DNA of 58,549 nt from an uncultured Prevotellaceae bacterium (lineage in GTDB: Bacteria; Bacteroidota; Bacteroidia; Bacteroidales; Muribaculaceae), in the NCBI GenBank assembly GCA_900317835.1, contig ONIL01000012.1, positions 1-58,549 on the forward strand, read 5' to 3'. Positions within the stretch are counted from its first letter, which is position 1. Each line of letters starts with the position of its first letter. A program made the translations under genes and the position numbers. The notes below the pieces were generated by a model. The model was not told where the DNA came from. It saw only the letters and a program-made list of their open reading frames with translations, and made no database searches. Positions 25,325 through 48,599 of this stretch are shown here, piece by piece.

Positions 25325-25405
25325 ATGCGTGAATCATTATGGCTTGTAAATAAAAAATATCGAGAAAAAATCGGTTAGTTGATTTATTTATGCGGCTGAT
25401 TTGAT

Positions 25406-25413
25406 TATCTTTG
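25406..25413 (+). promoter_or_regulatory. -7 promoter box for the amidase cluster
   Basis: TATCTTTG, 30 bases before the amidase start. A TTTA at 25383-25386 (19-base spacing) is the nearest -33 candidate. Confidence 0.5.
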
Positions 25414-25442
25414 CGATATCTAATCAAAAGAACTGTTTTGTT

Positions 25443-27380
25443 ATGCGAAAAATTTACCTGGTAATCCTGTGCGTGTGTGCTTTGACAGCGTCGGCTGCCG
25501 GCGTGAAGCACGGTAGTGAAAAGACGTTGGTGGACAGTTGCGGCTTTTTCCCGCAGTTGAGCCCTGATGGCCAATGGTTAATCTACTCACCCACCGAGGC
25601 CACCTCGCTGATGTTGAAAAACCTGTCAACGGGTGCCGTAACGCCTGTTTCCCGAGTGGGATACCCCGGCTTTGATGCTATCTTTGGCCCCGATGGTAAG
25701 GTGTATTATATCACTCAGCAACGCAAGAAAAATGGTCTGGTTTACCGCACAGGGCATTGCTATGATCCTGCGACAGGCAAGGATGAGGTGGTGCTCAAGC
25801 CTCAGCATGGCCGCGTGCAGGCTCTGCGATCGACAAGCGGTGTGGTCATTAATGGTGAGCGCCAAGTGTATTACAGTGGCAAGCAGGTGGGATCTTGGGT
25901 CTATACGCGTGGCGACAAACTTTATCTGGTGGATGAGGCGGGCACGACTCGTGCCTTGCAGCCCATCAAGGACAGTAACGGTTACTTGTGGGCGTCGTTG
26001 TCGCCCGATGGAACGCGGGTGCTGTTCGAGGCCGCTTCACATGGGCTGGTGGTTTGTGACCTTAATGGTGAGGTGCTGTCCGAGTTAGGCGAGTTCCTCA
26101 TGCCTTGCTGGTACAATAATGACTACATCATCGCCATGAGCAATGCGGGAAATGTGCGGCTGAGCGGTTCCCGCATCTGGCTCCTGTCGGTTGATGGTGA
26201 AGTGTTCAAACCGATTTCAGCCAAGGATGAGCGCGCTGTTCAACCTATGGTCTCAGGCAATAAGGTGGTATATAGCGTTATCTACAGTGGCCAGGTCAAG
26301 CAAGTCGAACTGGATTTGACTCCAGTCACATTAAACGCTCAGGCAGCCGGCAAAGGCCGTACCCAGAAAGTGAAGAATGCAGTCAACAAGAAGGATGTGC
26401 CCCGAGTGTTCATCAATCCTGGCCACGGTGGCCATGATAGTGACGACCGCCACATGCCCACATGGGTCGTCGGCGAGCAGGACACGCTCCACTACTATGA
26501 GTCTAACTCCAATTTGACCAAGGGGCTTGCTTTGCAGGAAATTTTGGAGAACAAGGGGTATGAAACGGCCATCTCGCGTAAGACCAATCTCACCGAGGAT
26601 GACCTTGACCTGTTTGAAATCGTGTCGCTTGCGGCGAACAGCGGAGCCGACATTTTCTTTGCCATCCACAGCAATGCCACAGGAACTGATAAATGTGTCA
26701 ATTTCCCCTTGGGGCTGTATCGCGGATGGGACGGCAAGCCAGCTGTGGAGGGCAGCTTGAAGTTAAGTGATGCCGTGATGAAATATGCCTTTAAAAATGA
26801 GTTGACTGTCTGGACTCACGATGAACGCAGCCGCGGCGATTGGTCATTCTATGACTGGGGTTACATGGTCGGACTGGGTGTCTTGCGTTTCAATAAGTTG
26901 CCAGGCATGTTGAGCGAAGGCTCGTTCCATGACTATCTGCCCGAACGAGAGCGCTTGATCAATGACAATTATTGCTGGCTTGAGGCCTGGAACCAGTCGT
27001 TGGGCATTGACGAGTACTTTGGACGAAAAGGCAAATTCAAGAACGGCGTGATTGCGGGAACCGTTCGTTGGGAAGACCAGTTGCGCCATGATGAGGATAG
27101 ACGTTTGTTTGGAGAAGACAATAAACTTCCCGTGAATGGAGCAGTGTTGCGACTGTACAACGGACGTGGCTTGCTGAACCGTGTTTATAAGCTTGACAAC
27201 CGTGACAATGGCGTGTTTGTGTTCACCAATCTGCCCAAAGACAAGTACAAAATCGAGCTTCACTACGGCAATGATGATTTAATGTACAATTCTGTGAATG
27301 TCAAGGTGAAGAAAAACCAGACTTCATACAAGAATTTGAAGATGAAAACAAATCAAAAACCCAAAAAGAGTAAAAAGTGA
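25443..27380 (+). CDS. Secreted N-acetylmuramoyl-L-alanine amidase with N-terminal beta-propeller
   Basis: A 645-residue protein. There is a signal peptide (LVILCVCALTASAA). Residues about 30-290 are a TolB/PD40-like propeller (FPQLSPDGQWLIYSP, LWASLSPDGTRVLFE, MPCWYNNDYIIA). An Amidase_3 domain (about 310-510) shows zinc and catalytic residues in INPGHGGHDSDDR, YYESNSNL, AIHSNATG and MLSEGSFHDY. A C-terminal carboxypeptidase-regulatory-like sandwich ends the protein. It should cleave the peptide from MurNAc in peptidoglycan, in the periplasm or outside. It is colinear with the next two genes, which carry the propeller and the amidase separately. Confidence 0.88.
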   Translation: MRKIYLVILCVCALTASAAGVKHGSEKTLVDSCGFFPQLSPDGQWLIYSPTEATSLMLKNLSTGAVTPVSRVGYPGFDAIFGPDGKVYYITQQRKKNGLVYRTGHCYDPATGKDEVVLKPQHGRVQALRSTSGVVINGERQVYYSGKQVGSWVYTRGDKLYLVDEAGTTRALQPIKDSNGYLWASLSPDGTRVLFEAASHGLVVCDLNGEVLSELGEFLMPCWYNNDYIIAMSNAGNVRLSGSRIWLLSVDGEVFKPISAKDERAVQPMVSGNKVVYSVIYSGQVKQVELDLTPVTLNAQAAGKGRTQKVKNAVNKKDVPRVFINPGHGGHDSDDRHMPTWVVGEQDTLHYYESNSNLTKGLALQEILENKGYETAISRKTNLTEDDLDLFEIVSLAANSGADIFFAIHSNATGTDKCVNFPLGLYRGWDGKPAVEGSLKLSDAVMKYAFKNELTVWTHDERSRGDWSFYDWGYMVGLGVLRFNKLPGMLSEGSFHDYLPERERLINDNYCWLEAWNQSLGIDEYFGRKGKFKNGVIAGTVRWEDQLRHDEDRRLFGEDNKLPVNGAVLRLYNGRGLLNRVYKLDNRDNGVFVFTNLPKDKYKIELHYGNDDLMYNSVNVKVKKNQTSYKNLKMKTNQKPKKSKK

Positions 27381-31845: not shown

Positions 31846-32706
31846 ATGATGGTCAAAGGACAAAATATCACACTCATTGCCGAGAGTAGCACAACGCGCA
31901 CCGAGTGGTCGCTGATTGATGGCGGTGATGTGCTGGAACATGCTTTCACGTCGGGCTTGAACCCGTTCTTCATGACACGCCGTGAGATCAGTCACAGCAT
32001 CCGTCTGGAGTTGCCGCCTGAATTTTTCAAGCGTCGGTGGAATCATGTCTATTTTTATGGTGCGGGTTGCTCAGGTCCTGAGAAGAATAAGATCATTGAG
32101 TCATCGTTGGTAGCTCAGTTCAAGACACCCGTGACGGTGATGAGCGACCTGCTGGGTGCAGCGCGCGGCTTGCTGGTGCGGGAACCTGGTTTGGCATGTA
32201 TTTTGGGCACGGGCAGCAACTCGTGCCTGTACGATGGCAAGGAGATAGTTAAGAATGTGCCTGCGCTGGGTTTCATCCTGGGTGATGAGGGCAGTGGTGC
32301 AGCCTTGGGCCGTGTCTTCTTGGGTGATGCTCTGAAAGGCTTGGCGCCTAAAGATTTGACGGATGCTTTCTTTAATAAATATAAGGTGACACGAGCCGAG
32401 GTGCTTGATGCTGTGCTCAACAACCCCGCTGCTACGCGCAACCTGCGTGCCTATTCGTTCTTCCTGAGCGAACACCTGGATAGCGACTACGTTCATGACC
32501 TGATAGCGCATGAATTCAGGCGTTTCTTTGAGCGTAACGTGGCGCAATATGACTACAAGAGTTATCCTGTGAATTTTGTTGGTCCCATTGCTACAGCCTA
32601 TAGCGAAATCTTGCTCGAAGTAGCCAACGACTTTGGCGCAACCGTTCGCAAGATTGTCCTCAGCTCCATGCCCGGCCTGGTTGCCTATCACAGCGGGCAG
32701 GAGTGA
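31846..32706 (+). CDS. BadF/BadG-family sugar kinase-like protein
   Basis: A 286-residue ASKHA-fold protein of the BadF/BadG family, paralogous along its length to the MurNAc-kinase-like gene at 46914: SDLLGAARGLL, CILGTGSNSC, LGFILGDEGSGAALG, NFVGPIA. Members phosphorylate N-acetylglucosamine or MurNAc with ATP. Here the first phosphate-binding motif reads AESSTTRTEW, whereas the paralogue has ADCGSTKINW. The usual Asp and Gly are thus Glu and Ser, and activity may be changed. It is monocistronic. Two adjacent ATGs (31846, 31849) could start it. Confidence 0.82.
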   Translation: MMVKGQNITLIAESSTTRTEWSLIDGGDVLEHAFTSGLNPFFMTRREISHSIRLELPPEFFKRRWNHVYFYGAGCSGPEKNKIIESSLVAQFKTPVTVMSDLLGAARGLLVREPGLACILGTGSNSCLYDGKEIVKNVPALGFILGDEGSGAALGRVFLGDALKGLAPKDLTDAFFNKYKVTRAEVLDAVLNNPAATRNLRAYSFFLSEHLDSDYVHDLIAHEFRRFFERNVAQYDYKSYPVNFVGPIATAYSEILLEVANDFGATVRKIVLSSMPGLVAYHSGQE

Positions 32707-35826: not shown

Positions 35827-35857
35827 TTTGGTTTATTGTTTGGTTTGAGTACTTTTG
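35827..35857 (+). promoter_or_regulatory. Bacteroidetes-type promoter for the large amidase-like gene
   Basis: TTTG (35827-35830), 19-base spacer, TACTTTTG (35850-35857): full consensus match, 38 bases before the start codon. It lies inside the longer open frame, which rules out the upstream start. Confidence 0.7.
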
Positions 35858-35895
35858 TTGCATTAGTTTTTGAGATAAACCGAACGATAAAAGAT

Positions 35896-38800
35896 ATGAA
35901 AAAATCTAGAAAAGTATTGTTGAGTGCCGTGGCTTGCCTGGCAACGATAGTTCCTATGCAGGGTCAATCTTTTGACCAGGAAAAGCAGGACGCAGTGCAA
36001 CGCATTGTGGAGAGTAAGTTGCCCGAGCACATGGGCGTGGGCAACCTGAAGGTGCGCTCACTCGTGGTAGAAAATGACACCGTCAAGGTCGATGTGAGTG
36101 AGAATTTTGGCGATGTGCCGTTCACCGAGGCTGGTGTGGAGCAGATGCGTGGCGAGATCCGCGAGGCATTGGGCGAGGAATACAATGACAGCCCGGTGCT
36201 GATTACCATCGTGGGCAACGACATCAACAAGTACTTTGCCGACTACGAGCCTGCTTATAAGCGTTCTCACAAGCCCTTTATCAGTGAGCTGGACGCCAAC
36301 CGTCATTATAAGCGCGGCTTGGACGGCAACATCATCGCCATGTGGCCCAGTCACGGCTGGTACTTTGAGCCACTGCTCAACCGCTGGGAGTGGCAGCGCG
36401 CTCGACTGATGCAGACCGTAGAGGACATGTACACGCACAGCTATGTGCTGCCGTTCCTCATCCCGATGCTGGAGAACGCCGGTGCCTATGTGTGGAACGC
36501 CCGTGAGCGTGACACCCACAACTATGGCGCCGTGGTCGATAACGACCCGTGCGAATTGGCCCAGAACGGCTACAGTGAGCACAATGGCAAGCAGAAGTGG
36601 CAGGATGGTGAGGGAGCTGGCTTCGCCTTCTTGCGCGACCAGTACAAGGACTTTGAGAATCCCTTCACCGAGGGTACTTACCGTATGGTCAAGGCCGAGA
36701 AGGACAAGAAGAAAGTGTCGACCGCTACTTGGGATGTGGATATGCCCTATAGTGGCGATTATGCCATCTATATCTCTTATAAATCGCTGCCCAACAGCGC
36801 GCGTGATGTGACCTACACCGTCAACAGCCAGGCTGGAAAACGCCAGTTCCGCGTCGATCAGACAATTGCAGGAGGAGTTTGGGTCTATATTGGCACTTTC
36901 CCTCTCGCTAAAGGTATGAATAAGGCCGTGGTTGAGGTGTCCAACCTGAGCGAGGACAAGGATGCCGTCATCACGGCCGACGCTATCAATGTGGGCGGCG
37001 GATACGGCAATATTGCTCGACGTGTGGCACTACCTACCGAGGAAAACCGTCGCATCGCCGCCGAGCAGGAGAACGAGAAATACCTCGGCAAGGAGGGAAT
37101 TGACTATAGTTACATTGGCAGCGGCAACCATCCCTGGTTCCACCTGGGATCACGTTACTATCTGCAGTGGGCGGGTTTCCCCGACAGTGTCTATTCCACC
37201 TCCCATGGCATCAACGACTATAACGATGACTACCGCAGTCGTGGCGAGTGGGTCAACTATCTCGCTGGCGGCAGTGACGTGCTGCCCGACCGCGGAGGCT
37301 TGCGGGTGCCTGTTGACCTGTCGTTCTGTCTGCATACCGATGCTGGCGCTACCCCCGACGATGAGATCGTGGGAACCCTGTTGATCTATTGCACCCGTGC
37401 TAACGGAAAGCAGTTCGGCAAATATGCCAACGGCACCCCGCGTGAACTGTCTCGCCGCTTTGCCAACCTGCTCTCGACCGAGATTGTCAAGGACGTGCGT
37501 GCCAAGTGGGAACCCAACTGGACGCGTCGCGGCATGTGGGACAAGAGTTACTACGAGGCGCGCGTGCCCGAGGTGCCCGCCGTGCTCATGGAGTTGCTCT
37601 CGCACCAGAACTTTGCGGATATGAAATATGGCCTGGATCCGATGTTCCGCTTCGACGTGTGCCGTGCCATCTACAAGGGCATGCTCAAGTTCATCGCCCA
37701 GCGCGATCACCGCAGTTATGTCGTGCAACCCTTGCCTGTCAACAACTTTGCCATCAGCAAGACCGGTAAGGGTCAATATCTGCTCACATGGGATCCTACC
37801 CACGACGACTTGAGCGACAACGCCGATGCCACGGCTTACATCGTGTGTGAGCGCGTGGGAATGGATGGCGGCTTCAAGGAAATCGCCACCGTCAAGGGTC
37901 CGCAGTATAGTGTGAGCATCAAAGATCACAAGATGCACAGTTACCGCATCATCGCCATGAACGACGGCGGCCGCAGTTTCCCCAGTGAGATTTTGAGCCT
38001 GGGCGAGGTCGCTTCGAGCAAGGGCGAAGTGCTGGTGGTTAACGGATTTACCCGCGTGAGCGGTCCCGATTGGTTTGAGGACAGCATTCGTGCTGGTTTT
38101 GACGACGACAAGGACCATGGTGTGCCTTACATCCAGCAGATCAACTACCTGGGCTCGCAGTATGAGTTCCGCCGTAGCATTGAGTGGAAAGACGATGACG
38201 CTCCCGGTTTTGGCGCTAGCCGCAGTGACCACGAGACGATGAACGTGGCCGGTAACTCCTTCGATTATCCTGCCGTGCACGGCGATGCGCTGATGAACGC
38301 CGGTTACTCCTTCGTTTCTTGCAGCCAGCAGGCATTGGAGAACGGTTATAACACCAGTGACTACCGCCTGATGGACCTGATCCTGGGCAAGCAGAAGGAA
38401 ATCTCGACTGGAAGCGGCCTGAAGCCCACACGCTTCAAGATCTATACCACGGGTCTGATGGATGCCTTGCGAGAGTTCACTGGCCGTGGCGGCAGCGTGG
38501 TGATGTCGGGTTCCTATGTGGGTAGCGACTTGTGGGACAATGCCGCCGGCAACAATGACCTGCAGGGTCAGGCTTTTGTCAAGCAGGTGTTCGGTTTTGA
38601 GGGACTGCATGGACGTGCCTCGCTTGACGGCACCGTCATCACGGTCGATTGTCCTGACAGCCGTCTGGGCGAGAAAGGTAAATGCTGGGAATTTGTCAAC
38701 AAGTTGAACGACTATATGTACGCTGTCGAGTCACCTGACGCTATCCGCGCCAGCGACAGCAAGGGCTTCACTTGGCTGCGCTATGGCGAGAACGGCCTGC

Positions 38801-38928
38801 CCGCCGCTGTTGCCAGCGACCGTGGCAACTATCGCACAGTCGTGTTGGGCTTCCCGCTGGAATCCATGACCTATTCCAGTGACTTGACCAACCTGCTGGG
38901 CCGCATCATGGACTACCTCATTCGCTAA
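35896..38928 (+). CDS. Large secreted amidase/xanthan-lyase-like protein with inserted golvesin-type domain
   Basis: A 1010-residue protein with a signal peptide (VLLSAVACLATIVPMQGQ). It shows scattered Amidase_3-like elements: MWPSHGWYFEP, a YVLPFLIPMLENAGAYVW helix-strand, LSFCLHTDAGATPDD and VPAVLMELLSHQNF. Between the first two and the last two sits a beta-sandwich of the golvesin/xanthan-lyase type (YAIYISYKSLPNSARDVTY, GVWVYIGTFPLAKG). A fibronectin III-like segment follows (QYLLTWDP), then a long C-terminal domain of unknown type. It probably cleaves peptidoglycan peptides outside the cytoplasm; the xanthan lyase label used for relatives is not supported by motif here. The ATG at 35896 is set by the promoter upstream. 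Confidence 0.8.
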   Translation: MKKSRKVLLSAVACLATIVPMQGQSFDQEKQDAVQRIVESKLPEHMGVGNLKVRSLVVENDTVKVDVSENFGDVPFTEAGVEQMRGEIREALGEEYNDSPVLITIVGNDINKYFADYEPAYKRSHKPFISELDANRHYKRGLDGNIIAMWPSHGWYFEPLLNRWEWQRARLMQTVEDMYTHSYVLPFLIPMLENAGAYVWNARERDTHNYGAVVDNDPCELAQNGYSEHNGKQKWQDGEGAGFAFLRDQYKDFENPFTEGTYRMVKAEKDKKKVSTATWDVDMPYSGDYAIYISYKSLPNSARDVTYTVNSQAGKRQFRVDQTIAGGVWVYIGTFPLAKGMNKAVVEVSNLSEDKDAVITADAINVGGGYGNIARRVALPTEENRRIAAEQENEKYLGKEGIDYSYIGSGNHPWFHLGSRYYLQWAGFPDSVYSTSHGINDYNDDYRSRGEWVNYLAGGSDVLPDRGGLRVPVDLSFCLHTDAGATPDDEIVGTLLIYCTRANGKQFGKYANGTPRELSRRFANLLSTEIVKDVRAKWEPNWTRRGMWDKSYYEARVPEVPAVLMELLSHQNFADMKYGLDPMFRFDVCRAIYKGMLKFIAQRDHRSYVVQPLPVNNFAISKTGKGQYLLTWDPTHDDLSDNADATAYIVCERVGMDGGFKEIATVKGPQYSVSIKDHKMHSYRIIAMNDGGRSFPSEILSLGEVASSKGEVLVVNGFTRVSGPDWFEDSIRAGFDDDKDHGVPYIQQINYLGSQYEFRRSIEWKDDDAPGFGASRSDHETMNVAGNSFDYPAVHGDALMNAGYSFVSCSQQALENGYNTSDYRLMDLILGKQKEISTGSGLKPTRFKIYTTGLMDALREFTGRGGSVVMSGSYVGSDLWDNAAGNNDLQGQAFVKQVFGFEGLHGRASLDGTVITVDCPDSRLGEKGKCWEFVNKLNDYMYAVESPDAIRASDSKGFTWLRYGENGLPAAVASDRGNYRTVVLGFPLESMTYSSDLTNLLGRIMDYLIR

Positions 38929-39105: not shown

Positions 39106-40590
39106 ATGGGAAGAATTAATTGCTTTATTCCGTTTGTCAGCGCCGAACAGGCCGCGCAGACCATTGAGCACCTCAAAGGTCAGGAACTGGTGAACAAGAT
39201 TTATCTGCTGGCCACAGTGGACAATCCTCAGCCTGTCGAGGGTTGTGAAATGCTGCCCGTTAACGCGCTGTTCTCCAGCGCCACAATGCGCGAGATCGCC
39301 GCTCGCGCCGATGCCGATTTTGTGTTGTTCTACACCAAGTATGACACCCTCAAGATGGGACCGTTCTCACTGGAACGCTTCGCCAAGTTGGCCGATGACA
39401 CCCGTTCGGGTATGCTCTATGCCGACCACTACAATGTGACCGACAAGGGTGCAGATAAGGCCCCGGTGATTGATTACCAGATGGGTAGCCTCAGGGACGA
39501 CTTCGACTTCGGTTCAGTGCTGTTCTTCTGTGCGCAGTGCTTCAAGAAGGCTGCGGCCGCAATGCAGGCTGACTATGAATTCGCCGGCATGTACGATTTG
39601 CGCCTCAAGCTGTCACAGTTTGCCGCCATCACCCACATCAACGAGTACCTCTACAGCGATGTCGAACTTGACACCCGCAAGAGCGGCGAAAAGATTTTTG
39701 ACTATGTTGACCCACGCAACCGTGGCCGCCAAATCGAGATGGAGCAGGCTTGCACCGAGCACCTGAAGGAAGTGGGTGGATATCTAGCTCCCACACGCAT
39801 CGAGGACGGCAAGGAAGTGCCCAACTTCCGCCACATCGAGTTTGATAAAGGCGATTTCGAGGTCGAGGCAACGGTGATGATTCCCGTGCGCAACCGCATC
39901 CGCACCATCCGCGACGCCATCGACTCGGTCCTCAAGCAGGAGTGCGATTTCAAGTTCAACCTGATGGTGGTTGACAATTTCTCAACTGATGGAACCCGCG
40001 AGGCTATCGCCGAGTACAACGATCCACGCTTGATTCACATCATTGCCGATTTCTATGACATGGGCATCGGCGGTTATTGGAATCTGGCTGCCCACAGCAA
40101 GCGGGCCGGCAAATTCATCGTGCAGCTCGACAGTGATGACATGTATAAGGATGAGCACACGTTGCAGACAATGGTGAACGCTTTCTACGAACAGAATGTG
40201 GCAATGGTGGTGGGTACCTACCAGATGACCGACATCCACCTCAATCCCATTCCCCCTGGTGTCATCGACCACAAGGAGTGGACCCCCGAGAATGGCCGCA
40301 ACAACGCCCTGCGCATCAATGGCTTGGGCGCTCCTCGCGCTTTCTATACGCCAGTGTTGCGTGAGGTCAAGATTCCCAACACCAGCTATGGTGAGGACTA
40401 TGCTCTGGGTCTGAACATCTCGCGTCATTACCAGATAGGCCGTGTCTATACTCCCGTCTATCTGTGCCGCCGCTGGGATGACAACAGTGACGCCTCGCTC
40501 GACGTCGAGAAGATGAACCGTAACAACCTCTACAAGGACCGTATTCGCACCTGGGAACTCCAGGCGCGCATCGCCCTTAACAAGAAATAA
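39106..40590 (+). CDS. Family 2 glycosyltransferase with N-terminal extra domain
   Basis: A 494-residue protein. The C-terminal half is a GT-A transferase: VMIPVRNRIRTIRDAIDSVL near residue 260, DNFSTDGTR, and QLDSDDMYKDEH near 342 with the metal-binding DxD. The N-terminal 240 residues (INCFIPFVSAEQAAQTIEHL, TKYDTLKMGPFSLERF) resemble a degenerate second GT-A fold. There are no membrane helices. The donor and acceptor are unknown. It heads the forward run through DUF4922, SpoIID-like, AmpG, NamZ, MurT, kinase and MurQ genes, so it may act on recycled wall sugars (inference). Confidence 0.82.
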   Translation: MGRINCFIPFVSAEQAAQTIEHLKGQELVNKIYLLATVDNPQPVEGCEMLPVNALFSSATMREIAARADADFVLFYTKYDTLKMGPFSLERFAKLADDTRSGMLYADHYNVTDKGADKAPVIDYQMGSLRDDFDFGSVLFFCAQCFKKAAAAMQADYEFAGMYDLRLKLSQFAAITHINEYLYSDVELDTRKSGEKIFDYVDPRNRGRQIEMEQACTEHLKEVGGYLAPTRIEDGKEVPNFRHIEFDKGDFEVEATVMIPVRNRIRTIRDAIDSVLKQECDFKFNLMVVDNFSTDGTREAIAEYNDPRLIHIIADFYDMGIGGYWNLAAHSKRAGKFIVQLDSDDMYKDEHTLQTMVNAFYEQNVAMVVGTYQMTDIHLNPIPPGVIDHKEWTPENGRNNALRINGLGAPRAFYTPVLREVKIPNTSYGEDYALGLNISRHYQIGRVYTPVYLCRRWDDNSDASLDVEKMNRNNLYKDRIRTWELQARIALNKK

Positions 40591-40607
40591 ATCACGCTAA
40601 GACTCAA

Positions 40608-40631
40608 AGCCGCTGAATTTTTATAGCGGCT
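40608..40631 (+). other. Short hairpin between GT2 and DUF4922 genes
   Basis: A 7-base-pair stem AGCCGCT (40608-40614) with AGCGGCT (40625-40631) and a 10-base loop, with no T run. It could attenuate or process the transcript. Confidence 0.4.
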
Positions 40632-40653
40632 AGGTGTGAGGCAACTGAGAGCA

Positions 40654-41616
40654 ATGATGAACTACAGCATTACCATTGACAGGCTTTTCAAAAAGCAACT
40701 TCGCGATTGGGACGTTGCTAAGCGCAACTATGCGGCTTTGGCAACGGCTGCCACACGCACGTTGCACCTGGGGGGGGCATCGGTAGTGCTGCAGTTCAAT
40801 CCCGAGCGGATACGCTCATCGGCCGCTGCAATCGACAAGAAATCACTTGCTCGGCGCAAGTGCTTCCTTTGCACCGAGAACCAACCCGCACGGCAGAAAG
40901 CGATCCTGTGGGGCAACCGTTACAAAATCCAGGTTAACCCATATCCCATCTTCTCCCGTCACTTGACCATTGTTGACCTGCAGCATGTGCCTCAGCGATT
41001 GGCTGGAAGGGTGGGGGAAATGTTGTACCTGGCCCAGTCGTTGCCTGATTTCGTGGTATTCTACAACGGGCCGCAATGTGGTGCGTCAGCCCCTGACCAT
41101 GCCCACTTCCAAGCGGGTATAAAGGGCGTGATGTCGCTGTGTGATGAGATACTCCATGCCACAACAACGTTGCTGGCCGATAGCGACGAGGGATTTATCG
41201 GATATGTCAATGCCCTGGGACGCAGCCTGTTCACCATCGAGACGACGACTGTGCGTGCGGCCGAGCGTTATGCCCTTCGTTTGCTTGATCTGTTACCGCC
41301 TTCTGTTGGGGGTGATGAGCCGATGGTCAACGTTTTGTGCTGGTGGGACACGACCGATCGCGTGTGGCGCATTGCCATCTTCCCGCGCCGTAAGCACCGG
41401 CCTGCATGTTATGGCGAGGGAGAGGGTAGGCTATTGTTGAGCCCTGGATCCGTGGACATGGGTGGCCTTTGGGCAGTTCCTGAACAAAAGGACTTTGACA
41501 GCCTGACTCCCATGCAGATTCAGGCCCTCTATAACGAGTTGTGTTTGTCGCGTGACGACTTGGCGCCGATTCTCAGCCGTTTCAGTCAACGATGGGATGA
41601 CGCACCATTATTATGA
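40654..41616 (+). CDS. DUF4922 protein, GalT/Ap4A-phosphorylase-like (HIT superfamily)
   Basis: A 320-residue protein. The N-terminal part has a zinc-type CxxC (RRKCFLCTENQP, C70 and C73), then NPYPIFSRHLTIV. The histidine motif is APDHAHFQAG (H149, H151, Q153), very like the nucleophile motif of galactose-1-phosphate uridylyltransferase, Ap4A phosphorylase and GDP-galactose phosphorylase. It should transfer or phosphorolyse a nucleotidyl group on a sugar phosphate or dinucleotide; the substrate is unknown. The ATG at 40654 is preferred to a GTG at 40636. It lies between the GT2 and SpoIID-like genes of the wall-salvage locus. Confidence 0.82.
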   Translation: MMNYSITIDRLFKKQLRDWDVAKRNYAALATAATRTLHLGGASVVLQFNPERIRSSAAAIDKKSLARRKCFLCTENQPARQKAILWGNRYKIQVNPYPIFSRHLTIVDLQHVPQRLAGRVGEMLYLAQSLPDFVVFYNGPQCGASAPDHAHFQAGIKGVMSLCDEILHATTTLLADSDEGFIGYVNALGRSLFTIETTTVRAAERYALRLLDLLPPSVGGDEPMVNVLCWWDTTDRVWRIAIFPRRKHRPACYGEGEGRLLLSPGSVDMGGLWAVPEQKDFDSLTPMQIQALYNELCLSRDDLAPILSRFSQRWDDAPLL

Positions 41617-41639
41617 AATGAGGAAAACTGATAAAGATT

Positions 41640-42974
41640 ATGGACGAGAAACTGATACCTCTAGTGAGGGTGGGCATCATGAATGAGCCCGAATTGGAAT
41701 TTGTGCTCAATGGCGAGTACCGGGTGAATGGGACTGCATGCGTCGGCGCCCATCAGGCCAGATATGCCGATGGGCAAATCGAATGGAACGGCCAGCGCTA
41801 CAGTGAGCTGCTGTTTGAGCCGCAGGATCCCGAGGCTGCCTCGTTTACACTCAAGGGCGTGACCATCGGTGTGAGCTTCCACTGGAAACGTCAGGAGGAC
41901 CAGACATTCAAAGGTGCGCTTCACATCATTGTCGAGAACGGCAAGTTAACGCCAATCAACGTGCTGAGCGTCGAGGACTATCTGTTGAGCGTGATTTCCA
42001 GTGAGATGAGTGCAAATGCGTCTCTTGAACTTCTCAAGGCCCATGCCGTGATTTCGCGCAGCTGGCTGCTGGCACAGATTCATAATGACAAGGCTACCAT
42101 GAAGTCTGAAAGCCGTCCTGATGCCACGGGCGAGATGATGGATACCCCCGAAGAACTTGTCAAGTGGTGGGATCGTGACGACCATGTGAATTTCGACGTG
42201 TGTGCCGATGACCACTGTCAGCGCTATCAGGGTATCACCAGGGCTACCACCGACAAGGTGGATAAAGCCGTTCGCGCTACTTGGGGCGAGGTGCTCATGC
42301 ATGGCGGTGAGTTGTGTGATGCCCGTTTCAGCAAGTCGTGCGGAGGCGTGATGGAGGAATTTGAAAACTGCTGGGAACCGCATCACCACGACTATCTAGA
42401 GGCACGGCGTGACGGCGAAAACGAGGAGGACTATCCCGACCTCACCCGCGAAGACAATGCCGCTGAGTGGATTTTGTCTAGTCCCAGTGCCTTCTGCAAC
42501 ACTACCGACCCCGAAATCCTGTCCCAAGTTCTTAACGACTACGATCAGGAGACCAAGGACTTTTATCGCTGGAAGGTGGAGTACACCCAGGCCGAAATCG
42601 CTCAGCTCATCCATGAGCGCACGGGCATTGATTACGGTCGCATCCGTGACTTGCAGCCAGTGGCCCGCGGCACGAGTGGCAGGCTGTACCGCCTGCGCAT
42701 TGTGGGTGAGAAACGTGAACGCATCATCGGCAAGGAACTGACCATCCGCTACGCCTTGTCGCCATCATGCCTGTACAGTTCAGCCTTCGTTGTCGAGAAA
42801 CACGACGTGGACGATGACGGTTATCCCGCTAAATTCGTTTTGCGTGGTGCGGGTTGGGGACATGGTGCCGGCCTGTGCCAAATCGGGGCTGCCGTCATGG
42901 GCGCCCGAGGCTACGATTACAAGCAGATCCTGCTGCACTATTTTGTGGGTGCCAGCATCGAGAAAAGATATTGA
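41640..42974 (+). CDS. SpoIID/LytB-domain protein
   Basis: A 444-residue protein. The core SpoIID domain shows VEDYLLSVISSEMSANASLELLKAHAVISRSW (catalytic-type Glu and Arg region), FSKSCGGVMEEFENCW and the closing GAGWGHGAGLCQIGA plus YKQILLHYFVGA. SpoIID proteins are lytic transglycosylases that cut glycan strands lacking stem peptides. No clear signal peptide is visible: the N-terminus MDEKLIPLVRVGIMNEP is not hydrophobic, which is odd for a wall enzyme, so a cytosolic or alternatively exported role is possible. Its place before AmpG and NamZ fits release of wall sugars. Confidence 0.87.
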   Translation: MDEKLIPLVRVGIMNEPELEFVLNGEYRVNGTACVGAHQARYADGQIEWNGQRYSELLFEPQDPEAASFTLKGVTIGVSFHWKRQEDQTFKGALHIIVENGKLTPINVLSVEDYLLSVISSEMSANASLELLKAHAVISRSWLLAQIHNDKATMKSESRPDATGEMMDTPEELVKWWDRDDHVNFDVCADDHCQRYQGITRATTDKVDKAVRATWGEVLMHGGELCDARFSKSCGGVMEEFENCWEPHHHDYLEARRDGENEEDYPDLTREDNAAEWILSSPSAFCNTTDPEILSQVLNDYDQETKDFYRWKVEYTQAEIAQLIHERTGIDYGRIRDLQPVARGTSGRLYRLRIVGEKRERIIGKELTIRYALSPSCLYSSAFVVEKHDVDDDGYPAKFVLRGAGWGHGAGLCQIGAAVMGARGYDYKQILLHYFVGASIEKRY

Positions 42975-43020
42975 TGTATTCGCCATCACATGTTAGATAA
43001 TCATAAAATAATCTATTGAT

Positions 43021-44355
43021 ATGAAAGAAATTGAGGTTGAATCCAACAAAAGAAACCCGTGGTTGTGGATTACCACGCTGTATTTTATTGAAGGAATCCC
43101 CTATTTTCTGGTGAACGAGATTTCAGTGATCTTGTTCAAGAAGATGGGTGTTCCTAATGGACAGATGGCGTTGTTCACGAGTCTGATCTATTTGCCGTGG
43201 GTGATCAAGCCCCTGTGGAGCCCCTTTGTAGATATCATCAAGAAAAAACGTTGGTGGATCACAACCATGCAGATTATCATGGCCCTGACGCTGATTCTGC
43301 TCACGGTCACCTTGCCGTCACCTGGCGAGGCGATGATACAAGCCGGGACGACCCCCATCAGCCTGTTCACGATTACGCTGATATTCTTTATCATCACGGC
43401 CTTTGCAAGTGCGACCCATGATATCGCTGCCGATGGCTTCTATATGTTGGCGCTGTCGCAGAAGAACCAGTCTGCCTTTGTTGGTGTCCGCTCGACGTTT
43501 TATCGTCTTGCTAACATCTTCGGTAACGGCGTTCTCGTGTGGATTGCTGGTTACTTGGAGACCAAGACGTCGATACCGCAGGCATGGAAAGTGACGATGG
43601 GCATCGCTGCGGCCATCTTGTGTTTGTTCTCGTTGTATCATCTCTTCATGATTCCTCGCCCTGCTAGCGATAAGCCGTCAATCCAGGGCTCGTTCAAGTC
43701 TAACAGTTCGGCAATCATGGCTGAGTTCGGCCGCACCATCGCCACCTATTTCACCAAGCCTGGTGTCTGGCTCGCCATTGCCTTCATGCTGCTTTACCGT
43801 TTGCCCGAGGCCTTCTTGTTGAAGATGTGCAAACCATTCCTGCTTGACCCGACGGACAAGGGAGGCTTGGCCATGACAACTCAGGATGTGGGCCTTGCTT
43901 ATGGTACGCTGGGCGTTGCGGCTTTGCTTGCCGGAGGCATCTTGGGCGGCATCTTTTCATCAAAAGTGGGACTGAAAAAAGCTTTGTGGTGGATGGCTGC
44001 CTGCATGACTCTGCCGTGCCTCACTTTTGTGTATCTGTCGATGCAGTTGCCTGCCAATTTCTATGTGATTGCGATATGCATCATCATTGAGCAGTTTGGT
44101 TACGGATTTGGTTTCACGGCCTATATGCTGTACATGATGTACTTCTCTGAAGGCGAGTTCAAGACATCGCACTATGCCATTTGCACGGCCTTCATGTCGT
44201 TGAGCATGATGATTCCCGGCATGTTTGCCGGTTACTTGCAGGAGTCGATGGGATATGCCGCGTTCTTCTGGCTGTCATTCGCCTGCAGCATCGCCACGAT
44301 TGCTGTGACATTCTTTGCCGACCGCAAGATTGATCCCGATTATGGCCATAAATAA
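43021..44355 (+). CDS. AmpG-like MFS permease
   Basis: A 444-residue major-facilitator protein with about 12 membrane helices. YFIEGIPYFLVNEISVILFKKMG and ATHDIAADGFYMLALS are the AmpG-type motifs (helices 1 and 4). AmpG proteins import muropeptides or anhydro-disaccharides across the inner membrane. Its place between the SpoIID-like gene and the NamZ gene supports uptake of wall fragments. The exact ligand is unknown. Confidence 0.88.
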   Translation: MKEIEVESNKRNPWLWITTLYFIEGIPYFLVNEISVILFKKMGVPNGQMALFTSLIYLPWVIKPLWSPFVDIIKKKRWWITTMQIIMALTLILLTVTLPSPGEAMIQAGTTPISLFTITLIFFIITAFASATHDIAADGFYMLALSQKNQSAFVGVRSTFYRLANIFGNGVLVWIAGYLETKTSIPQAWKVTMGIAAAILCLFSLYHLFMIPRPASDKPSIQGSFKSNSSAIMAEFGRTIATYFTKPGVWLAIAFMLLYRLPEAFLLKMCKPFLLDPTDKGGLAMTTQDVGLAYGTLGVAALLAGGILGGIFSSKVGLKKALWWMAACMTLPCLTFVYLSMQLPANFYVIAICIIIEQFGYGFGFTAYMLYMMYFSEGEFKTSHYAICTAFMSLSMMIPGMFAGYLQESMGYAAFFWLSFACSIATIAVTFFADRKIDPDYGHK

Positions 44356-44377
44356 ACGTTCAACCCCGATAATTTAT

Positions 44378-44438
44378 AATGCGAATTCCACGAATTAAAC
44401 AAATTAGTGAAATAAGTAGAATTAGCGTAATTCGTATT
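44378..44438. repeat. Palindromic intergenic element, short version
   Basis: A 61-base element whose ends AATGCGAATT and AATTCGTATT are near-perfect inverted repeats. It matches the ends of the longer element at 38941-39064. It lies in the 102-base gap before the NamZ gene. Confidence 0.6.
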
Positions 44439-44457
44439 AAAAGAAAAGAATAGGAAT

Positions 44458-45714
44458 ATGAAAAAGATAGTTTTGATATTGATAGTGGGTGTGCTGGCGG
44501 TGATGACGGCCGGAGCGGTCGTCAAGCCTGGTGTGGAGGTGCTGCGTGACGGCGGTTTTGCACAGTTGCAGGGCAAGCGTGTGGGGCTGGTGACCAACCC
44601 CAGCGGCATAGACAACAACCTCAAGAGCACCGTTGACATCCTCAACGAGGCGCCTGGCGTCAAGCTTGTGGCGCTGTTCGGCCCTGAGCACGGCGTGCGC
44701 GGCAATGCCCATGCGGGCGATGCCGTGGGCGATGCTGTGGACCCGCTGACGGGCATCAAGATGTATTCACTCTTTGGCAAGACCCACGAACCGACGGCCG
44801 AGATGCTTCGGGATATCGATGTGCTCGTGTATGACATTCAGGACATCGGGTGCCGCAGCTACACGTTCTATGCAACGATGGGCGTGTGCATGCAGGCATG
44901 TGCTAAGTATGGCACTGAGTTTATGGTACTCGACCGTCCTAACCCATTGGGAGGCAACAAGGTCGAGGGCAATCTTGTCGAGCCGGGCTATTTCTCGTTC
45001 GTGAGCAAGTATGCTATCCCTTACCTTTATGGTCTCACACCTGGCGAGTTGGCCACTTTCCTCAACGAGGAAGGCATAATCGCCCAGGAGTCTAAAACTG
45101 GCCTCAAGTGTAAATTGACCGTCATCCCGATGGAGGGCTGGACGCGCGACATGAAGTTCCGTGACACGGGCATGCCATGGGTGCTGCCTTCACCGCAGAT
45201 TCCTGCGCCCGAGAACGCCTTCTTTTATCCCGTGTCGGGTATCTTGGGCGAACTTTACATCTTCAACACGGGTATTGGCTACACGTTGCCTTTCGAGACG
45301 TTTGCCGCCTCATGGATCAACGCCGACTCGCTGGCGATGCGCATGAATGCCTTGAATCTGCCGGGCATGCATTTCCGCCCCATCAACTACAAACCGTTCT
45401 ATGCTTTGAGCGTTGCGGTTGACAAGTCTCTGCAAGAGGTGCACGGTGTGCAGATTTACATCACCGACCTCGATGCTGCAAACCTGTGCCTGACGCAGTT
45501 CTACTTCCTGCAGGTCATCCACGAGATGTATCCCAATGTGGAACTGTTCGAGCAGAATCCCAAGCGTTATGCCATGTTTGACAAGGTATGTGGCACCAAG
45601 GAAATCCGCGAGCGCTTCATCAAGCGCTACCGTGTCGAGGATATCGCCGACTACTGGAACAAGGATGTTGATGTCTTCCGCATCCGTTCTGCAAAATATT
45701 ACCTATATCATTAA
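44458..45714 (+). CDS. Exo-beta-N-acetylmuramidase, NamZ type (DUF1343, GH171)
   Basis: A 418-residue protein with a signal peptide (LILIVGVLAVMTAGAVV). GKRVGLVTNPSGID, LFGPEHGVRG (with the likely catalytic Glu), VYDIQDIGCRSYTF and VLDRPNPLGG are the DUF1343 signatures. NamZ enzymes release MurNAc from the non-reducing ends of peptidoglycan fragments in the periplasm. The transporter, kinase and MurQ genes directly downstream complete a route from wall fragment to GlcNAc-6-phosphate. Confidence 0.92.
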   Translation: MKKIVLILIVGVLAVMTAGAVVKPGVEVLRDGGFAQLQGKRVGLVTNPSGIDNNLKSTVDILNEAPGVKLVALFGPEHGVRGNAHAGDAVGDAVDPLTGIKMYSLFGKTHEPTAEMLRDIDVLVYDIQDIGCRSYTFYATMGVCMQACAKYGTEFMVLDRPNPLGGNKVEGNLVEPGYFSFVSKYAIPYLYGLTPGELATFLNEEGIIAQESKTGLKCKLTVIPMEGWTRDMKFRDTGMPWVLPSPQIPAPENAFFYPVSGILGELYIFNTGIGYTLPFETFAASWINADSLAMRMNALNLPGMHFRPINYKPFYALSVAVDKSLQEVHGVQIYITDLDAANLCLTQFYFLQVIHEMYPNVELFEQNPKRYAMFDKVCGTKEIRERFIKRYRVEDIADYWNKDVDVFRIRSAKYYLYH

Positions 45715-45727
45715 TAATCAGAAGTGT

Positions 45728-46888
45728 ATGGCAAAAAACGATAAACGATTGTTGTCGCTTGACATCCTGCGCGGTATCACCATTGCGGGAATGCTGCTGG
45801 TCAATAATCCGGGCACGTGGAGCTATCTTTACCGTCCATTGGCACATGCCGAGTGGATTGGTCTGTCGCCCACCGATCTGGTATTCCCGTTCTTCATCTT
45901 CTGTATGGGTGTATCGATGGCCTTCTCGCTCAAGAAGTTCAATTACAAGCTCTCTGGGCCGTTGATGTGGAAGATTGTACGCCGCACGCTCATCCTGTTC
46001 TTCATCGGTTGGGCAGTACAGTGGTTCGGTCACCTTGTACGAGGTCTGATTAATGGTGATCCTTTCAAGGATGCAGTCAACAATCTCGACACGTTGCGTT
46101 ACTTGGGTGTGTTTCAGCGGTTGGCGCTGGTCTATTTCTTCGGATCGCTGTGTGCGGTATTTTTCAACCGCAAGTTCATCCCGTGGCTTGTAGGCATCAT
46201 TCTGGTCATCTACGCCTTGATTTTAGGCCTGGGACACGGTTATGACTTCACGCTCCAGAACATCATCGCCCAAATCGATAACAGTGTGCTGGGCACTGAC
46301 CACATGTACCACGAGCATGCCTTCGGCGAGAGCCTCTCATTTGACCCTGAGGGTATATTGAGCACCTTGCCGTGTATCGCCCACGTTCTAATCGGTTATC
46401 TGGTAGGCCGCATGATTTTGTCGGTACATAACAATACCGAGCGTGTGACCAAGATGCTGCTGTGGGGCACCTTGCTGCTGCTGGCCGGCTGGCTGTTGCA
46501 GTATGGAATCCCCTGCGGCAAAAAGATGTGGTCATCGACGTTTGTGATGATTACCTGTGGCATGGCGATGTGCATCCAGGCAATGCTCATCTATTTCGTC
46601 GATATCAAGGGGCACAAGGGAAGTTGGGGACGCTTCTTTGAGTCGTTCGGTGTCAATCCTTTGGCTATCTATTTGCTGGGAACAGTGCTGTCAATCCTGT
46701 TTGGCGCTATTCCCGTCGGTCATGACATTGACGGTGGCAATATCTCTATCCACAGCGCGGTTTACCACTTCTTCCAGAGCTTCTGTGACGAGTACACTGC
46801 ATCGGCACTGTATGCCATTGCATTTGTCCTGCTCAACTGGATAGTTGCCCATATTCTCTACAAGAAGAAAATATACATCAAAATCTAG
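45728..46888 (+). CDS. MurT-like MurNAc transporter (COG4299/DUF5009 type)
   Basis: A 386-residue protein with about ten membrane segments. RLLSLDILRGITIAGMLLVNNPGTW and WIGLSPTDLVFPFFIFCMGVSMAF are the markers of the COG4299 heparan-glucosaminide acetyltransferase-like family. As I recall the literature, the Tannerella forsythia protein in the same position, before a kinase and MurQ, is a MurNAc importer (MurT). Transport is therefore the favoured role over acetyl transfer. The ATG at 45728 is 13 bases after the NamZ stop; the open frame upstream of it is shadow. Confidence 0.8.
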   Translation: MAKNDKRLLSLDILRGITIAGMLLVNNPGTWSYLYRPLAHAEWIGLSPTDLVFPFFIFCMGVSMAFSLKKFNYKLSGPLMWKIVRRTLILFFIGWAVQWFGHLVRGLINGDPFKDAVNNLDTLRYLGVFQRLALVYFFGSLCAVFFNRKFIPWLVGIILVIYALILGLGHGYDFTLQNIIAQIDNSVLGTDHMYHEHAFGESLSFDPEGILSTLPCIAHVLIGYLVGRMILSVHNNTERVTKMLLWGTLLLLAGWLLQYGIPCGKKMWSSTFVMITCGMAMCIQAMLIYFVDIKGHKGSWGRFFESFGVNPLAIYLLGTVLSILFGAIPVGHDIDGGNISIHSAVYHFFQSFCDEYTASALYAIAFVLLNWIVAHILYKKKIYIKI

Positions 46889-46913
46889 CTAATAATTTAA
46901 AACTCAAAATATT

Positions 46914-47765
46914 ATGATGATTCTTATTGCTGACTGCGGCTCCACCAAGATCAACTGGACGCTGCTTAATGGAAAAGAGAAGGTAGCGCAGATTTTCACT
47001 ACTGGTATGAATGCCTTGCTGCTCACCGAGGAGGAGATGAAGGAGCAGATCAAGCGTGAATTGATGCCTCATCTGACCAACTACAAGGTGGATGAGATTC
47101 ATTACTATGGCGCCGGCATTATTTCTGACGAAATCAAGCAGCAGGTGGTCAACGCCCTTCGCGCCAATCTGCCCAGTGCCGGCAAGATTGAGGTGGCCAG
47201 TGACCTGCTGGCAGCAGCCCGCGCCGTGTGCGGTCGTGAACCCGGTATCGCCTGTATCATGGGCACTGGCAGCAACTCGTGCTACTATGATGGCGAGAAG
47301 GTGGTGCTTAACGTGTCGCCGCTGGGCTATATCCTGGGCGACGAGGGCAGTGGCGCCGTGCTGGGCAAACTGCTCGTGGGCGATGTGCTCAAGAAACAGT
47401 TGCCAGAGCACCTGTGCGAGAAGTTCATGAAGGAATACAATTTGGATTACACGACCATCATCACTTCGGTCTATCGCAAGCCTGCCGCCAACCGCTTCCT
47501 GGCTCAGTTTGCCCCCTTCTTAGAGCACAACATCGATGAACCGTCAATCCACCGCATCGTGCTGCGCTCGTTTACCGATTTCTTTACCCGCAATGTGGCA
47601 AGCTACCCCAATTACAAGGAACTGCCATGCAATTTTGTGGGCTCCATCGCATTCTGTGAGAAGGCGGTGCTTCAAGAAGCCGCCCAGGCACTGGGCATTA
47701 CCATCGGCACCGTGATCAAGGATCCGATGGAGGGCCTCATGAAGTATCACTCGACTGATGAGTAA
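46914..47765 (+). CDS. BadF-family MurNAc/GlcNAc kinase (MurK-like)
   Basis: A 283-residue ASKHA-fold kinase. The phosphate-1 motif is intact (ILIADCGSTKINW). Also seen are YYGAGI, ASDLLAAARAV, IMGTGSNSCYYDG and LGDEGSGAVLG. It would phosphorylate imported MurNAc (and perhaps GlcNAc) at O6 with ATP, making the MurQ substrate. It lies 25 bases after the MurT-like gene and 18 before murQ. The kinase-like gene at 31846 is a diverged paralogue. Confidence 0.88.
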   Translation: MMILIADCGSTKINWTLLNGKEKVAQIFTTGMNALLLTEEEMKEQIKRELMPHLTNYKVDEIHYYGAGIISDEIKQQVVNALRANLPSAGKIEVASDLLAAARAVCGREPGIACIMGTGSNSCYYDGEKVVLNVSPLGYILGDEGSGAVLGKLLVGDVLKKQLPEHLCEKFMKEYNLDYTTIITSVYRKPAANRFLAQFAPFLEHNIDEPSIHRIVLRSFTDFFTRNVASYPNYKELPCNFVGSIAFCEKAVLQEAAQALGITIGTVIKDPMEGLMKYHSTDE

Positions 47766-47783
47766 CATTAAAAAGACAGAATT

Positions 47784-48599
47784 ATGGCTTTTGTGAAAAT
47801 TAGCGAACAACCATCGCTCTACGATAACCTGGAGAAGAAATCGGTGCATGAATTGCTCACCGAGATCAACCAGGAGGACCACAAGGTGGCCGATGCGGTG
47901 AAGCTTGCGATACCGCAGATTGAGCGCCTGGTCACGGGCATCGTCGAGCGAATGAAAAAAGGCGGGCGCATCTTCTATATGGGTGCCGGCACAAGCGGCC
48001 GCTTGGGAGTGCTGGATGCCAGCGAGATACCGCCCACCTTCGGCATGTCGCCAGGGTGGATAATCGGTCTCATCGCTGGTGGTGATACAGCTTTGCGCAA
48101 CGCCGTCGAGAATGCCGAGGATGATACTGAGCAGGGCTGGAAAGACCTGCAGGAGTATAACGTCTCGCCGCTCGACACGGTTATCGGCATCGCGGCATCG
48201 GGCACAACGCCTTATGTCATCGGCGCCTTGCGCGACGCGCGAGCCAACGGCTGCCTCACCGCCGCTATCACGAGCAACCCTGACGCTCCCGTGAGCGAGG
48301 TGGCCGAGATACCCATCGAGATGATTGTAGGCCCCGAGTTTGTGACTGGCAGTTCCCGCATGAAGAGCGGAACGGGCCAAAAACTCATCTGCAACATGAT
48401 ATCGACCACTGTGATGATTCAAATGGGGCGCGTTAAGGGCAACAAAATGGTCAACATGCAGCTTACTAACCAGAAACTCGTGGATCGTGGCACCCGTTGG
48501 CTCGTCGAGGAGCTGAAGATCCCCTATGACGACGCTAAGCGCCTGTTGTTGCTCCACGGATCGGTCAAGAAGGCTATTGATGCCTACCGCGGCCAGTAA
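47784..48599 (+). CDS. murQ: N-acetylmuramic acid 6-phosphate etherase
   Basis: A 271-residue SIS-domain enzyme. GAGTSGRLGVLDASEIPPTFG and IAASGTTPYVIGALRDARANG are diagnostic for MurQ, with VVGPEFVTGSSRMKSGT-like sequence (here IVGPEFVTGSSRMKSGTG) nearby. It cleaves the lactyl ether of MurNAc-6-phosphate to GlcNAc-6-phosphate and D-lactate in the cytosol. It is the last gene of the salvage run; a 185-base gap follows. Confidence 0.96.
   Translation: MAFVKISEQPSLYDNLEKKSVHELLTEINQEDHKVADAVKLAIPQIERLVTGIVERMKKGGRIFYMGAGTSGRLGVLDASEIPPTFGMSPGWIIGLIAGGDTALRNAVENAEDDTEQGWKDLQEYNVSPLDTVIGIAASGTTPYVIGALRDARANGCLTAAITSNPDAPVSEVAEIPIEMIVGPEFVTGSSRMKSGTGQKLICNMISTTVMIQMGRVKGNKMVNMQLTNQKLVDRGTRWLVEELKIPYDDAKRLLLLHGSVKKAIDAYRGQ

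Follow-up and report, generated by a model that had tools for sequence, protein, structure and literature searches.

The closest described relative of the locus studied here is an operon of Tannerella forsythia, Tanf_08345-08385, whose genes are listed as xanthan lyase, gtf, gtf, lytB, ampG, ybbC/namZ, murT, murK and murQ (PMC5388701). Reverse transcription PCR placed them on a single transcript that starts 17 bases before the first gene, a reporter test demonstrated control by GppX, and the AmpG counterpart has been tested experimentally (PMC5388701, PMC7670621). The MurT counterpart of T. forsythia is a transporter of N-acetylmuramic acid (MurNAc). On the T. forsythia contig NZ_JUET01000082 (our locus L110), the order reads ‘xanthan lyase’-type protein (XL), glycosyltransferase of family GT2, DUF4922 protein, SpoIID-like protein, AmpG, NamZ, MurT, MurK, MurQ; from this order, the second ‘gtf’ occupies the position of DUF4922. 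The DNA analysed here, contig ONIL01000012.1 (GCA_900317835.1), is a stretch of 58,549 nucleotides that we call the window and to which all coordinates refer. It holds all nine of these genes with order and strand unchanged, and its gene content and order make it a Tannerella-type wall-sugar operon, which is thus already known. What is new is that three of its genes, encoding the GT2, DUF4922 and SpoIID-like proteins (hereafter the trio), behave as one unit across genomes.

Comparison with T. forsythia also reveals differences. GT2 and DUF4922 are separated by 66 bases in the window, while the longest open reading frames in L110 overlap by 4, and the window carries an 880-residue reading frame between a second kinase gene and the operon. 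The GT2 and SpoIID-like proteins share 64% and 61% identity, respectively, with those of L110. The single transcript and GppX control have been shown in T. forsythia only. An earlier interpretation of the window from its letters (the sequence-only reading) had described eight forward genes running from GT2 to MurQ and pointed to a likeness to T. forsythia; open reading frames and family profile matches bear out the place, order and families of all eight, and the T. forsythia contig bears out the likeness. Its proposal that GT2 and DUF4922 mark an undescribed branch is not supported as it stands: the operon has been published, T. forsythia transcribes it as one unit, and ‘gtf’ is the name given to both genes there (PMC5388701). 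The trio genes in the window are:

39106-40590, forward strand: GT2 protein with two GT-A-like domains, trio member 1 (PF00535, 66.5 bits)
40657-41616, forward strand: DUF4922 protein, Ap4A-phosphorylase-like, of the HIT superfamily, trio member 2 (PF16269, 206.4 bits; H-x-H-x-Q motif)
41640-42974, forward strand: SpoIID/LytB-family protein, trio member 3 (PF08486, 83.9 bits; TIGR02669, 162.9 bits)

For DUF4922, an ATG start at 40657 is the likely one, over a GTG at 40636.

Joint presence of the trio was assessed in an even draw of 60 genomes from the order Bacteroidales and in 198 genomes of the phylum Bacteroidota; since the window's own genome (G000) belongs to both samples, the total is 257. 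DUF4922 was counted as present above 100 bits, the SpoIID clade at E≤1e-20 (profile A2) and GT2 at E≤1e-60 (profile A3). Profiles A2 and A3 were built partly from the genomes searched, which is not the source of the absences elsewhere. DUF4922 was found in 17 of the 60 order genomes and 28 of the 198 phylum genomes, and the SpoIID clade in precisely these genomes, 44 in all. GT2 was found in all 17 of these order genomes and in 27 of the 28 phylum genomes; a further order genome, G011, has a divergent copy. All three genes are therefore present together in 43 of the 257 genomes, and two of the three in G215, where GT2 was not matched; this miss may not be real because the phylum search scored just eight GT2 candidates in most of the genomes listed, making GT2 absences weaker than those of DUF4922 and SpoIID. 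One exception to the all-or-none pattern is G011 (61% complete), with only the divergent GT2 (219.7 bits); neither DUF4922 nor a SpoIID-like gene was found in this incomplete genome. Weak DUF4922 matches of 19.8 to 26.6 bits in G086, G195 and G219 were not counted; those in G086 (26.6 bits) and G219 (26.5 bits), further exceptions to the pattern, are just over the Pfam cut-off and lie in short frames. The trio is complete even where its genes are scattered, over three contigs in G133, G002, G030 and G055 or far apart on one contig in G243.

Relatedness among the genomes was taken into account with a tree of the rpoB genes from 58 order genomes, built with a quick method and with 24 of its 55 inner branches weakly supported (G043 and G046, without rpoB, were omitted). 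The state of the trio changes seven times on this tree. DUF4922 and SpoIID change together in all six independent pairs (p = 0.031), and DUF4922 and GT2 do so in five, with no difference in the sixth (p = 0.0625, counting G011 as GT2-bearing). Gene fusions provide further evidence: DUF4922 and SpoIID are joined in single proteins of 787 residues (L027, G008) and 669 residues (L029, G025), and GT2 and DUF4922 in one of 826 residues (L030, G059).

Gene order was also compared in 80 loci from named genomes, picked by DUF4922. At least 588 hits were obtained, and because the 80 used are the nearest ones, linkage among them is higher than it would be in general; 27 are shorter than 20 kilobases (kb). 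Where both genes of a pair are held, direct same-strand adjacency was seen for GT2-DUF4922 in 76/77 loci, DUF4922-SpoIID in 71/73 and SpoIID-AmpG in 63/69. The sequence-only reading had noticed a true oddity and misplaced its edge: the unit consists of GT2, DUF4922 and the SpoIID-like gene. A possible explanation of the first two genes is a role in the glycosylation of proteins or of the cell surface, with regulation as the only reason for their place in the operon. The authors of the T. forsythia work did call the upstream part of the operon glycosylation-related and GppX-regulated (PMC5388701). Against this, the two genes co-occur with one for a SpoIID-family protein in several classes, and DUF4922-SpoIID fusions exist; we consider it very unlikely.

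We found no description of the trio unit in the open-access literature searched, where matches for DUF4922 are plant papers, nor any text there joining SpoIID, Bacteroidetes, cytoplasmic and glycosyltransferase; a match listed for SpoIID and recycling concerns Chlamydia. No DUF4922 relative was found in the viral contigs scanned. Among the matches listed in a plasmid search with the SpoIID clade, four Bacteroidales records reached 54-60% identity and the six other rows 24-26%. An apparently broken second copy of GT2-DUF4922 was seen in one genome (G106:C140:4454-8270), with a stop inside GT2 and DUF4922 in two pieces.

The SpoIID-like protein is a clear family member (PF08486 at 83.9 bits against a cut-off of 23), and its profile aligned with the solved SpoIID structures 4rwr (E 8.3e-27) and 5i1t (E 4.5e-22), including the region of the catalytic glutamate of lytic transglycosylases. 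While it keeps this glutamate region, it differs from those enzymes in lacking a signal-like N-terminus, in length (444 versus about 330 residues) and in being fused to DUF4922 in two genomes. A simple hydropathy scan (first ~40 residues, 12-residue mean ≥2.0) rather than a signal-peptide program was used, and gave a strongly hydrophobic N-terminal stretch in just 2 of 86 SpoIID-like proteins versus 56 of 58 NamZ controls; both exceptions start with the usual E-P-x-x-x-V-G-I-L body, with no separate leader. SpoIID-like proteins as a group thus carry no recognisable export signal by this measure, which together with the DUF4922 fusions indicates a cytosolic location. The SpoIID-like protein, and hence the trio unit, is probably cytosolic. 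The sequence-only reading had counted it in the wall route; it is the constant partner of GT2 and DUF4922 and appears to be cytosolic.

The predicted model of DUF4922 (mean predicted local distance difference test score, pLDDT, 90.4; predicted template-modelling score, pTM, 0.91) found its best fold match in the yeast diadenosine tetraphosphate (Ap4A) phosphorylase Apa2 (4i5t; E 7e-9, template-modelling score 0.55-0.62), with ADP-glucose phosphorylase and GalT ranking below. Searching its profile against sequences from the Protein Data Bank also returned Apa2 (E 1.2e-6) and no other convincing match. All 17 aligned DUF4922 members matched Ap4A_phos_N (PF19327) at E≤0.1 (best 8.7e-9), while the window protein, at 14.7 bits, falls under the curated cut-off of 23.1. 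The curated GalT models gave 17.8-19.2 bits against cut-offs of 721-865. Like Apa2, DUF4922 has the fold and the H-x-H-x-Q region; unlike it, to which it is 18% identical, it has an invariant C-x-x-C and constant GT2 and SpoIID partners. Residues C69, C72, H110, H148, H150 and Q152 are invariant across 17 DUF4922 sequences, and the cysteines and first histidines may bind zinc as in GalT. Judged by profile and predicted model, DUF4922 resembles Ap4A phosphorylase more than GalT. The label ‘GalT-like’ given to it before is therefore apt at the level of the superfamily, with Ap4A phosphorylase nearer, and a simple GalT role was rejected, Ap4A phosphorylase being the better fit by both fold and profile.

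The branch suggested in the sequence-only reading, in which DUF4922 would activate salvaged MurNAc or N-acetylglucosamine (GlcNAc) as a nucleotide sugar for direct use by GT2, is touched by these results from both sides. The conserved H-x-H-x-Q motif suits it, as does the near-constant adjacency of GT2 and DUF4922 on one strand (and their fusion in one genome). However, it omits the SpoIID-like protein, which is equally constant, DUF4922 lies nearer Ap4A phosphorylase than the sugar uridylyltransferases, and the T. forsythia authors assign sugar activation to AmgK and MurU (PMC7670621). We consider it quite unlikely.

For GT2, the nearest protein by both fold (predicted model with pLDDT 87.9, pTM 0.84) and profile is the chondroitin polymerase K4CP of E. 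coli K4 (2z86, 2z87), with which it shares two tandem GT-A domains at ∼15% identity. The DSDD and GED motifs, invariant in 18 sequences, are found in the C-terminal domain only. Unlike K4CP, the N-terminal domain showed no conserved acidic pair at residues 70-90, the place where DXD is expected (by eye, from strand order); an invariant Y-x-D (Y105, D107) lies beyond them. Owing to the missing acidic pair, a two-site polymerase is unlikely, and the idea of GT2 as a two-site glycan polymerase was rejected. The likeness to K4CP nonetheless brings in the main rival to the reading that we favour below, namely that the trio makes its own cytosolic glycan or glycoconjugate, with GT2 extending it, DUF4922 handling the nucleotide part and the SpoIID-like protein trimming or releasing it, while the salvage genes do no more than supply it or come under the same regulation. 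We regard this as doubtful; further evidence on it comes from the gene neighbourhoods.

Salvage genes are frequent companions of the trio. The 80 named loci hold GT2 in 77 cases, AmpG in 74, SpoIID in 73, NamZ and MurK in 63 each, XL in 55, MurT in 52 and MurQ in 50; among the 53 loci of at least 20 kb, MurQ is present in 44 and NamZ in 46. GT2 and DUF4922 are thus strongly linked to murQ and NamZ among near relatives, where the rare linkage that the sequence-only reading named as counting against it was not seen. In the order sample, MurQ (counted above 100 bits; weaker matches, which resemble other SIS-domain proteins, were excluded) was found in 13 genomes, together with DUF4922 in nine, and within 8 kb of it in four. 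As MurQ is missing from 8 of the 17 DUF4922-bearing order genomes, it is not a core partner of DUF4922, and was rejected as such; MurQ and NamZ are optional companions. The trio without MurQ in these eight genomes favours glycan building. AmpG is usually the next gene after the trio in order genomes, and an unlinked SpoIID gene is followed by AmpG in G029, G023 and G055.

In other classes, 20 of 27 DUF4922 places were covered (G215 is outside these counts), with GT2 nearby at 17, SpoIID at six and AmpG at five. Here AmpG and BadF-type kinases (L124, L125, L137) or AmpG and NamZ (L126, L132) recur beside trio genes, which argues against glycan building, as does the unlikely two-site polymerase. 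Conversely, of 14 other-class loci with SpoIID apart from DUF4922, eight have a glycosyltransferase of family GT4 directly after SpoIID, all of them in family f74 (11 f74 loci covered), and in L122 and L123 GT4 separates SpoIID from the rest of the trio, so that ten other-class loci in all place GT4 beside a SpoIID-like gene, in favour of glycan building.

Our preferred reading is that the trio is a cytosolic route for a disaccharide imported by AmpG, GlcNAc-MurNAc or GlcNAc-1,6-anhydro-MurNAc (GlcNAc-anhMurNAc), with no need of AnmK. We put it forward tentatively; the order of its steps, its substrates and its direction are guesses. AmpG would bring either disaccharide into the cytosol, where the trio would act on it. 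The SpoIID-like enzyme might work on the anhydro-muramyl end, DUF4922 might add a nucleotidyl or phosphate group to the sugar so released or remove one from it, and for GT2 a glycoside of this chain might be either substrate or product. MurNAc set free would then pass to MurK and MurQ where present, and the cell would thereby manage without AnmK. A bolder version, which we think unlikely, is a phylum-wide three-enzyme cytosolic pathway that opens 1,6-anhydro-muramyl sugars and makes them available again, taking the place of AnmK and perhaps conserving the energy of the anhydro bond by transfer, with no ATP spent. Such a pathway would, to our knowledge, be the first cytosolic role of a SpoIID-family enzyme. 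T. forsythia, which has no predicted AnmK, can grow on GlcNAc-anhMurNAc by way of AmpG, and the authors of that work leave the next step open (PMC7670621); our search found no AnmK in its genome (G257). The trio may supply the step by which Tannerella and similar bacteria use wall fragments with no AnmK; this enzyme is likewise missing from 15 of the 17 trio-bearing order genomes. If the trio does so, DUF4922 would gain a function, and so would a SpoIID branch that currently goes by sporulation or amidase-enhancer names.

The link between AnmK and the trio is suggestive. In the order sample, AnmK was found in two of 17 trio genomes (G007 and, as a weaker, split match, G038) versus 37 of 43 others, and across the 58 tree genomes a raw Fisher test, ignoring relatedness, gave p = 5.6e-8. 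Several observations weigh against the proposed route. Six independent pairs on the tree gave none with the same state, about 2.5 with opposite states and 3.5 with no difference (p = 0.25), and AnmK exclusion was set aside as proof of replacement on account of this tree-aware value. AnmK and the trio also coexist: AnmK was found in nine of 28 trio genomes in the phylum sample (versus 126 of 170 others), and in six of the 29 named DUF4922 genomes covered by the AnmK search, four of these six being Bacteroides with the whole operon. The named genomes for this search came from 30 of the 80 loci, of which L085 was left out. SpoIID enzymes act on naked glycan strands and are not known to act on disaccharides. 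The parts of the literature covered report no activity for any trio member. AmpG was not seen in the trio stretches covered in f74, a family of another class, and GT4 after SpoIID in eight of the 11 f74 loci would fit glycan building no less than salvage.

The remaining genes of the window that bear on the operon are as follows:

31846-32706, forward strand: second BadF-type sugar kinase (56% identity to L110:4116-5024 over 276 residues; weak NagK_SO3507 match)
35836-38928, forward strand: XL protein (Golvesin_C; Amidase_3 match below cut-off)
43021-44355, forward strand: AmpG-like MFS muropeptide permease (TIGR00901, E 1.4e-53, 182 bits, below the cut-off of 350)
44458-45714, forward strand: NamZ, exo-beta-N-acetylmuramidase (NamZ_N and NamZ_C: PF07075, 279 bits; PF20732, 122 bits), with a hydrophobic signal-like N-terminus
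about 45728-46888, forward strand: MurT/NagX-like membrane protein (NF046061, 124.7 bits, E 4.5e-36, cut-off 480; 335 bits to the L110 counterpart)
46914-47765, forward strand: MurK-like MurNAc kinase (53.6% identity to T. forsythia MurK)
47784-48599, forward strand: MurQ, MurNAc-6-phosphate etherase (TIGR00274, 303.1 bits, cut-off 302)

The intergenic gaps from GT2 through MurQ are 13-102 bases. For the MurT-like gene, a start near 45728 is more likely than one at 45536, which lies inside NamZ. The XL and second kinase genes are both outside the range 39106-48599 given for the locus in the sequence-only reading. This second kinase is the counterpart of K1058, encoded at L110:4116-5024 upstream of the T. 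forsythia cluster, whose relation to the pathway has been called unclear (PMC10465942).

Some minor observations were made alongside. The GT4 gene that follows the SpoIID-like gene (L196, L197, L200, L202-L206, L122, L123) is a possible fourth member of the unit, and overlaps SpoIID in L196, L200 and L205. Other-class loci also have a neighbour set (c3, c5, c4, c6) on the opposite strand. The divergent GT2 of G011 stands directly before MurK and MurQ (L216:338-3539), and one locus (L035:4130-5794) has MurK and MurQ fused in a single 554-residue reading frame. Further upstream in the window, 25401-27380 encodes another possible wall enzyme, matched weakly by a CwlD-type amidase model (20.4 bits, cut-off 221.55).

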